Shown here in pieces: positions 15,386 to 21,843 of a stretch of DNA of 41,635 nucleotides. This stretch comes from Candidatus Moraniibacteriota bacterium (GTDB lineage: Bacteria; Patescibacteriota; Minisyncoccia; Moranbacterales; UBA2206). Where the stretch lies: assembly GCA_030679995.1 (NCBI GenBank), contig JAUXSK010000007.1:1-41635 (forward strand), written 5' to 3'. The number at the start of each line of letters is the position of its first letter. Positions within the stretch are counted from its first letter, which is position 1. The position numbers and the translations under genes were made by a program. The notes below the pieces were generated by a model that was not told where the DNA came from, searched no databases, and saw only the letters and a list, made by a program, of their open reading frames with translations.

Positions 15386-15538
15386 TCAGCACGAAGCCAT
15401 GGATAGGACAAGGGAGAATATTGTTGAAGTAACTTTTCCAGCTTGGTGAAGTTTTAATCTTTCTTTTAAATTTTCTGTATAGCCATAATAAAAATTTCTC
15501 GATTTTGAGCTATACAAAATATAGGTATAATAATACAT
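15386..15538 (-). pseudogene. Truncated GIY-YIG endonuclease relic (50-aa ORF)
   Basis: MYYYTYILYSSKSRNFYYGYTENLKERLKLHQAGKVTSTIFSLVLSMASC*: GIY-YIG N-terminal half, then unrelated tail. Confidence 0.8.
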
Positions 15539-21000: not shown

Positions 21001-21131
21001 GCTTATAAGTTTTATAAAATAAGTATACCACACTACATCACTATTCCAAGTAACAAAAAACGACTTTAGATCAAAAAATCATAACCAAAAAAAGGCTCTT
21101 TTGAGCCTCTTTTTGCGTATATTATTCACTG

Positions 21132-21202
21132 CACGGGTGGAGAGAATCGAACTCCCGCCAAGGGTTTTGGAGACCCTCGTTCTGCCACTAAACTACACCC
21201 GC
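21132..21202 (-). tRNA. tRNA-Trp (CCA)
   Basis: GCGGGTGTAGTTTAGTGGCAGAACGAGGGTCTCCAAAACCCTTGGCGGGAGTTCGATTCTCTCCACCCGTG; loop CTCCAAA, anticodon CCA, G73. Confidence 0.95.
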
Positions 21203-21209
21203 AAATATT

Positions 21210-21461
21210 TTATTTTAAATCCAATCTCTTCATCAATGACATATACACCGATCCACTATCTTTTAAACCTTTTTCTCTCTTGAGCGCTAAATATTTATCA
21301 TCATAAGCCTCATAATAAATCAATATTGGATTTCTATTTTTAGTTGAACGAGTATTACCACTTCCATGTCCAATCATTCTTCTTTTTAAGTCACTTGTAT
21401 ATCCAATATAAAACTCCTTTCCACCAATACAATCTAAACTTAAAACATATACATAATACAT
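21210..21461 (-). CDS. GIY-YIG endonuclease-domain protein (83 aa)
   Basis: MYYVYVLSL...KEFYIGYTSDLKRRMIGHGSGNTRSTKNRNPILIYYEAY. Confidence 0.92.
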   Translation of the reverse strand: MYYVYVLSLDCIGGKEFYIGYTSDLKRRMIGHGSGNTRSTKNRNPILIYYEAYDDKYLALKREKGLKDSGSVYMSLMKRLDLK

Positions 21462-21465
21462 TGAA

Positions 21466-21533
21466 GTTTTGGAGACACCTGTCAGTCGCGACTGACAGGT
21501 GAGACCCTCGTTCTGCCACTAAACTACACCCGC
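21466..21533 (-). pseudogene. 5' half-copy of tRNA-Trp interrupted by a 24-bp palindrome
   Basis: gttttggagac [acctgtcagtcgcgactgacaggt] gagaccctcgttctgccactaaactacacccgc; removing the insert gives the intact tRNA sequence 21164-21202. Confidence 0.92.
21477..21500. repeat. Perfect 24-bp palindrome flanked by gagac direct repeats
   Basis: ACCTGTCAGTCG/CGACTGACAGGT; gagac at 21472-21476 and 21501-21505. Confidence 0.9.
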
Positions 21534-21678: not shown

Positions 21679-21843
21679 CTATTTCGCCTCTTTGTGTGTC
21701 GTGTGGACTTTGCATTTCGGACAATGTTTTTTCATCTCCAGTTTCTCCTTCAGCGTCTTCTTGTTGCGGGTCGTGAAATAATTGGTCGTCTTGCAAACCT
21801 CGCATTTCATTTTCGCCAGGTTATCATTTCCTTTTTTTGCCAT
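21679..21843 (-). CDS. rpmG: 50S ribosomal protein L33
   Basis: [54 protein letters not shown]; track ORF over-extended into the tRNA. Confidence 0.93.

Follow-up and report, generated by a model that had tools for sequence, protein, structure and literature searches.

The window, that is the whole stretch of 41,635 nucleotides analysed here from a Candidatus Moraniibacteriota genome (contig JAUXSK010000007.1), carries on its minus strand, in this order, rpmG, a 5' copy of tRNA-Trp, the tetranucleotide TTCA, an ORF of 83 aa coding for a GIY-YIG nuclease, 7 nt and an intact tRNA-Trp (Table 1). An earlier note on this DNA had described the same succession of half tRNA, 4 nt, ORF, 7 nt and intact tRNA-Trp, which we found again, but had taken the half as continuous and overlooked a 24-nt palindrome. 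The half copy is discontinuous and reads GCGGGTGTAGTTTAGTGGCAGAACGAGGGTCTC, then the palindrome ACCTGTCAGTCGCGACTGACAGGT, then GTCTCCAAAAC. The palindrome reaches 26 nt when the outer C/G is counted, and GTCTC is present on either side of it. In this class of palindrome, named here class A, the window sequence corresponds to ACCYGTCAnTCGCGAnTGACRGGT, sited at GGTCTC. The shuffled window sequence contained no match to it, even with 3 mismatches allowed. Both the palindrome and the element as a whole are single-copy in their own genome.

Table 1 Features of the tRNA-Trp locus in the window.
Feature	Position	Strand	Remarks
rpmG (ribosomal protein L33)	21682..21843	-	conserved upstream neighbour; locus anchor in relatives
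Dead tRNA-Trp 5' half copy, whole extent including palindrome	21533-21466	-	
Dead tRNA-Trp 5' copy, first part	21501..21533	-	33 nt identical to intact gene, as are 3 nt (T) upstream
Perfect 24-nt palindrome in anticodon loop of dead copy	21477..21500	.	class A, cognate to the GIY-YIG clade of the window
Dead copy, continuation past palindrome	21466..21476	-	opens with GTCTC repeat
GIY-YIG nuclease ORF	21210..21461	-	83 aa, catalytic domain only; ATG at 21461
Intact tRNA-Trp (CCA anticodon)	21131..21202	-	7 nt 3' of ORF; sole tRNA-Trp in window

The protein coded by the ORF matches the Pfam GIY-YIG family (PF01541, E 1.8e-11) and the residues Y3/Y5, Y18/G20, R28, H32 and E51 are conserved in its domain. 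Its predicted model has the GIY-YIG fold (pLDDT 90.6), and the nearest proteins, both by sequence and by fold, are UPF0213 and SLX1. SLX1 is a structure-specific repair nuclease, and we know of no role as mobile elements for either of these two nucleases. The catalytic domain takes up the whole protein, with no joined DNA-binding domain. No NCBIfam family was assigned to it, and the absence of any match among 50,697 phage records led us to reject a phage origin. For the scan of the collection a closer GIY-YIG set was used, the alignment of 16 diverse GIY-YIG proteins being too divergent. The window also contains, at 15428-15535 on the minus strand, the remnant of a second, decayed GIY-YIG gene whose frame is broken after about 36 residues.

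The tRNA-Trp site in related genomes

We could place rpmG in 102 of the 131 genomes of the order; most of these loci were fetched and annotated, with a few added from the GIY-YIG search. A GIY-YIG gene, truncated in a few cases, was present at tRNA-Trp in about 18 of about 105 surveyed loci. In about 80 loci the interval between rpmG and tRNA-Trp had no GIY-YIG gene, and usually the spacer was just 10-180 nt long and free of palindromes of the window type. In these loci lacking both palindrome and GIY-YIG gene, a threshold-based scan detected no dead tRNA-Trp 5' half, and every upstream dead tRNA-Trp half that was found has a palindrome. Half copies independent of the element, which the earlier note had named as the observation that would refute it, were thus not seen. 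In L016 and L021 the GIY-YIG gene does not adjoin the dead half. The searches that the note had suggested gave both things sought, the empty sites and the same half/GIY-YIG/tRNA arrangement in other host families, and these favour its proposal that a GIY-YIG element entered the anticodon region of tRNA-Trp and that the tRNA was restored by means of its 5' half.

The class A layout of the window was found in L013, L012 and L193. In the last of these, the layout, the palindrome class and the nuclease clade are as in the window and the tRNA-Trp differs; the contig was binned as Thermodesulfovibrionia, but the surroundings of rpmG and the tRNA point to a CPR contig put in the wrong bin. Both in L193 and in the window, the half equals the intact tRNA-Trp of its own genome. 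That the halves are host-specific while the two tRNAs differ speaks for the second of the two options left by the earlier note (a carried or a duplicated 5' half restoring the tRNA).

For genus g58, the flanks of the two copies were compared with an empty relative. Identity with this relative was 0.62-0.66 for the sequence upstream of the dead half and 0.44-0.50 for the flank of the intact copy. Judged from these sequences, the dead half, and not the intact copy, occupies the ancestral position of the tRNA in the empty site and keeps its upstream flank, a pattern in keeping with an insertion in which the 5' half of the tRNA was duplicated. By analogy, the dead copy of the window would lie at the native upstream position. 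The outer dead halves of G003 and G269 can pair with each other in the acceptor stem, and between them stands an intact copy of another type (by eye), which suggests that in some cases the tRNA may have been replaced by a foreign one.

Targets, palindromes and repeats of the wider family

The nuclease profile matched 242 of the 384 sampled genomes of the class, which are mostly metagenome bins. A tRNA was found on the same strand at most 60 nt downstream of the GIY-YIG gene in 18 of 67 class-level loci, upstream in 2 and on the opposite strand in 0, compared with 27 of 296 for the other ORFs in the fetched tRNA-rich loci; the loci were picked by profile score and these fractions are not frequencies for all GIY-YIG genes. 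The intact tRNAs located 3' of the gene at the class level are Trp, Ala, Val, Tyr, Phe, Glu, Ser and Cys, and those for Gln and Asn were found in the order-level set. Often the ORF is preceded by a dead 5' part of the tRNA that follows it: in 18 of 76 cases, repeated hairpins being counted as well, the direct-repeat score exceeded the 99th percentile of mismatched pairs. The layout of the window was found again at tRNA genes for Tyr, Glu, Ser, Cys, Gln and Asn. The hairpins of the dead copies, placed by eye as were the cases of tRNA replacement, are situated in the anticodon loop for Trp and Glu, in the T loop for Tyr, Ser, Gln and Cys, and in the D loop for Asn, and outside tRNA-Trp they are often double. 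A second palindrome class, class B (CCCCGCCnnTCGCGAnnGGCGGGG), spans the anticodon loop to the T loop. Other insertions are located within or at the edges of 23S, 16S, RNase P RNA and tmRNA genes. Four of the RNase P RNA insertions (L125, L128, L178 and L189) occupy one spot directly 5' of GAGGAAAGTCC, in both orientations, with inverted repeats at the expected position of the P3 arm. In L150 and L170 the elements are inserted at a DnaA-box-like sequence, TGTGGATAA, with TGTG duplicated.

The arms of 24 palindromes covaried, with a value of 0.588 versus 0.159 in shuffles. In 55 relatives the class A palindrome occurred at 6 places, 5 of them at tRNA-Trp; with these few places and one copy in its own genome, we rejected the possibility that it is a dispersed repeat. 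Similarity between end sequences follows similarity between nucleases, with a Mantel r of 0.61 for the palindromes and 0.62 for the inverted repeats (reached in 0 of 2000 permutations; pairs of proteins more than 85% identical were left out). In the nuclease tree, built on 81 columns and with few forks resolved, the labels for the target fall into clusters, with 34 changes as against 41.1 in shuffles, and the nucleases at tRNA-Trp stand together, the group with class A palindromes, including the window, forming a starred clade.

Of 73 loci in the relatives, 40 have the ORF enclosed by inverted repeats of 14-22 bp with a score of at least 26, which is reached by 1.5% of mismatched pairs. The starts of their consensus sequences include ACCCCCACAC, CCCCGCC and GCCCCTCAC. 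Most units measure 285-330 bp, and the sole ORF of these units of about 300 bp is a GIY-YIG gene of about 84 aa with the active site kept. No known transposase class (DDE, HUH, serine, tyrosine) is present in them, the GIY-YIG protein being all that fits in such a length. Direct target duplications of at least 4 bp were found in 17 of 43 units, for a null mean of 0.97 and a maximum of 4, and in many units duplications of 4-9 bp lie next to the inverted repeats. Genome G137 contains two copies of 307 bp that share about 94% identity and have the duplications TAAG and TGTG, and G162 two copies of 294 bp, 87% identical; in both genomes the flanks of the copies are unrelated. At tRNA genes the duplicated segment runs from about nt 1 of the tRNA to the insertion point, which lies between 8 and about 62 nt into the tRNA. 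The TSD-like duplications range from 4 to about 62 nt. The mobility of the GIY-YIG family between and within genomes is well supported by these comparisons, and nuclease and palindrome or repeats travel together, towards specific targets that are often structured-RNA genes. The locus of the window was absent from the inverted-repeat hits, no such repeats being found around its ORF. Its copy belongs to the family by sequence and by target, not by inverted repeats, and what is said below of transposons is restricted to the relatives. With a palindrome and a half present and no repeats around the ORF, we regard this copy as a variant of a free-standing GIY-YIG homing element.

Origin of the locus

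The likely origin of the locus, in our view, is the insertion of a minimal selfish GIY-YIG mobile element into the tRNA-Trp gene of a CPR bacterium, with duplication of the 5' half and survival of the tRNA. Comparison shows the element to consist of the GIY-YIG nuclease gene and the cognate palindrome, and we infer that the nuclease itself drives the insertion. In the mechanism that we propose, the GIY-YIG protein would make one nick in the anticodon loop of the tRNA gene and another close to the 5' end of the tRNA, and repair would join the element between the two nicks, so that the segment from nt 1 of the tRNA to the cut would be found on both sides. Two nicks at variable spacing would give a duplication of variable length, and selection would retain the insertions that leave a complete tRNA; since survival needs the essential tRNA to be restored, only the insertions that rebuild it would be seen. 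The upstream copy, bearing the hairpin, would be dead and the downstream copy would be the complete, working tRNA. The hairpin or inverted repeats would probably be the ends of the element, comparable to REP/RAYT or IS ends, and serve for recognition, for shielding the dead copy from re-cutting, or both. Our preferred guess is that the site may be found by recognition of structure, as in SLX1. Several points count against this insertion model: the window copy is single and has no inverted repeats around its ORF, half and gene are apart in L016 and L021, a bare catalytic domain has no DNA-binding domain to explain the choice of site, the restored tRNA retains the presumed target loop and yet escapes re-cutting, and the variable length of the TSD-like duplications is unlike classical transposition.

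That the palindromes and inverted repeats are MITE-like or REP-like units moved by an unlinked enzyme, the GIY-YIG gene hitch-hiking or cutting for recombination, seems unlikely to us. Palindromes similar to that of the window do occur without GIY-YIG gene at five tRNA-Trp loci (L005, L068, L079, L080 and L084) and, in L006, near rRNA, and a lone nuclease of 84 aa is a small toolkit; against this, the GIY-YIG gene is the sole ORF of the units of about 300 bp and has retained its active site, the end sequences co-vary with the nuclease lineage, and the repeat sequence of G137 is confined to the two GIY-YIG copies. The dead half and its hairpin might also be a functional 5' leader controlling expression of the GIY-YIG gene, by sequestering the start or by tRNA mimicry, and be kept for this regulation. 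The hairpin of the window, strongly folding and situated about 15 nt 5' of the ATG, would suit such a role, and homing genes of phage T4, including segB, have 5' hairpins that restrict their translation (PMC2988022). We nevertheless regard regulation as an improbable reason for the arrangement, because similar hairpins are found 3' of an intact tRNA with no ORF (L013, L020, L022 and L123) and the relatives in the class have repeats at both ends of the ORF; the leader reading is in any case compatible with the insertion of a mobile element.

A tandem duplication of tRNA-Trp followed by decay, with the GIY-YIG gene as a bystander, would account for the direct repeats formed by the intact gene and the half and for the several loci with more than one dead fragment. 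It is very improbable, given that the about 80 loci without palindrome and GIY-YIG gene have no dead 5' half, that the layout is repeated at six other kinds of tRNA gene and that the dead copies are broken at loops and bear hairpins. Group I introns are known at the anticodon loops of tRNAs, as are GIY-YIG intron genes, and a degenerate intron of this type with its homing gene might be supposed in the anticodon loop. The Rfam search of the window gave four tRNAs only, bearing out the remark of the earlier note that no intron core is evident; moreover, the flanks of 4 nt and 7 nt are too short for a core and a full copy of the tRNA lies downstream. We therefore rejected this explanation, to which almost no credence can be given.

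Returning to the selfish element, its relatives could, more tentatively, represent a new class of transposable element, a possibility that we hold somewhat short of even. Such an element would measure about 300 bp, have one GIY-YIG mobility protein of about 84 aa and ends made of a hairpin or inverted repeats read by structure, target the loops of structured-RNA genes and, at tRNA genes, make its own rescue by duplicating, or sometimes replacing with a foreign one, the essential tRNA. This rescue would be a natural counterpart of cleave-and-rescue drives.

Relation to known systems

To our knowledge, GIY-YIG is not an enzyme of prokaryotic transposition. Should the nuclease alone mobilise the units, these would be among the smallest self-contained DNA mobile elements, and a nuclease class new to prokaryotic transposition would be at work. 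The family shares with insertion sequences (TIR and TSD) the inverted repeats and the target duplications, the copy of the window being without inverted repeats. In REP/RAYT systems, palindromes are cognate to one small nuclease gene, whose enzyme is a Y1 HUH transposase. The link between palindrome type and enzyme lineage is alike here (the Mantel correlation for the palindromes and the class A clade), but the enzyme is a GIY-YIG nuclease and the palindromes are few and tied to RNA genes.

The nearest free-standing GIY-YIG homing endonuclease located in a tRNA gene region is SegB of T4, which drives the inheritance of this region and likewise lies beside tRNA genes with a 5' hairpin (PMC2988022). 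As with homing endonucleases of this type, the gene adjoins its target and relatives with an empty target exist (about 80). The window locus differs from SegB by a protein reduced to its catalytic domain, by the dead tRNA half and by the cognate palindrome, and the relatives differ by terminal inverted repeats, target duplications and targets that include rRNA, RNase P RNA and tmRNA. In mitochondria of Allomyces and Glomus, mobile ORFs carry or replace the end of atp6, atp9, cox2 or nad3 (PMC3630166). There also an endonuclease gene lies within a gene, a duplicated part restores the function and the native remainder is dead; the carried part is however 3' and foreign (PMC3630166), whereas the 5' half of the window matches the intact gene of its own host. 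The target here is moreover a tRNA, with a palindrome, and foreign replacement of the Allomyces/Glomus kind is suggested in G003 and G269 only.

In CPR bacteria, GIY-YIG-encoding insertions of rRNA genes that match no intron have been described in a paper that judged GIY-YIG to be outside spread by homing (PMC11270868). The hosts and the presence of a GIY-YIG ORF in non-intron insertions are as in our loci, and these insertions are probably members of the present family (L140, L159 and L187); a search of the text of that paper gave no mention of tRNA, palindromes or hairpins. Our literature search, which covered sources other than preprints and most subscription journals, returned no account of the present arrangement, nor any CPR element of GIY-YIG type that has palindromes or inverted repeats or is aimed at a tRNA. 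Should the nuclease alone move the units, these would also help to account for the abundance of GIY-YIG genes in CPR genomes, for the odd insertions in rRNA genes that are not introns and for the strong variation of tRNA-Trp between close relatives. The system also gives testable predictions on the way in which an essential RNA gene present as a single copy can be invaded by a selfish element while the host survives.

Further observations were made at these tRNA genes. The acceptor and anticodon stems of tRNA-Trp are highly variable within a single genus (g17, g39), as if the gene were often replaced. In L078, L016, L079, L131 and L174, tRNA 3'-end fragments are present 3' of the intact tRNAs, beyond inserts of about 110 nt that start near the T-loop sequence, and these inserts look as if a different type of insertion had taken place at the T loop. 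An ORF of about 216 aa was found in the identical interval, between rpmG and tRNA-Trp, in seven genomes of several families (L040, L043, L044, L064, L076, L094 and L117); it has an HTH-like start followed by a part without Pfam match, no dead half accompanies it, and tRNA-Trp may be a hotspot that also receives elements of a second type.
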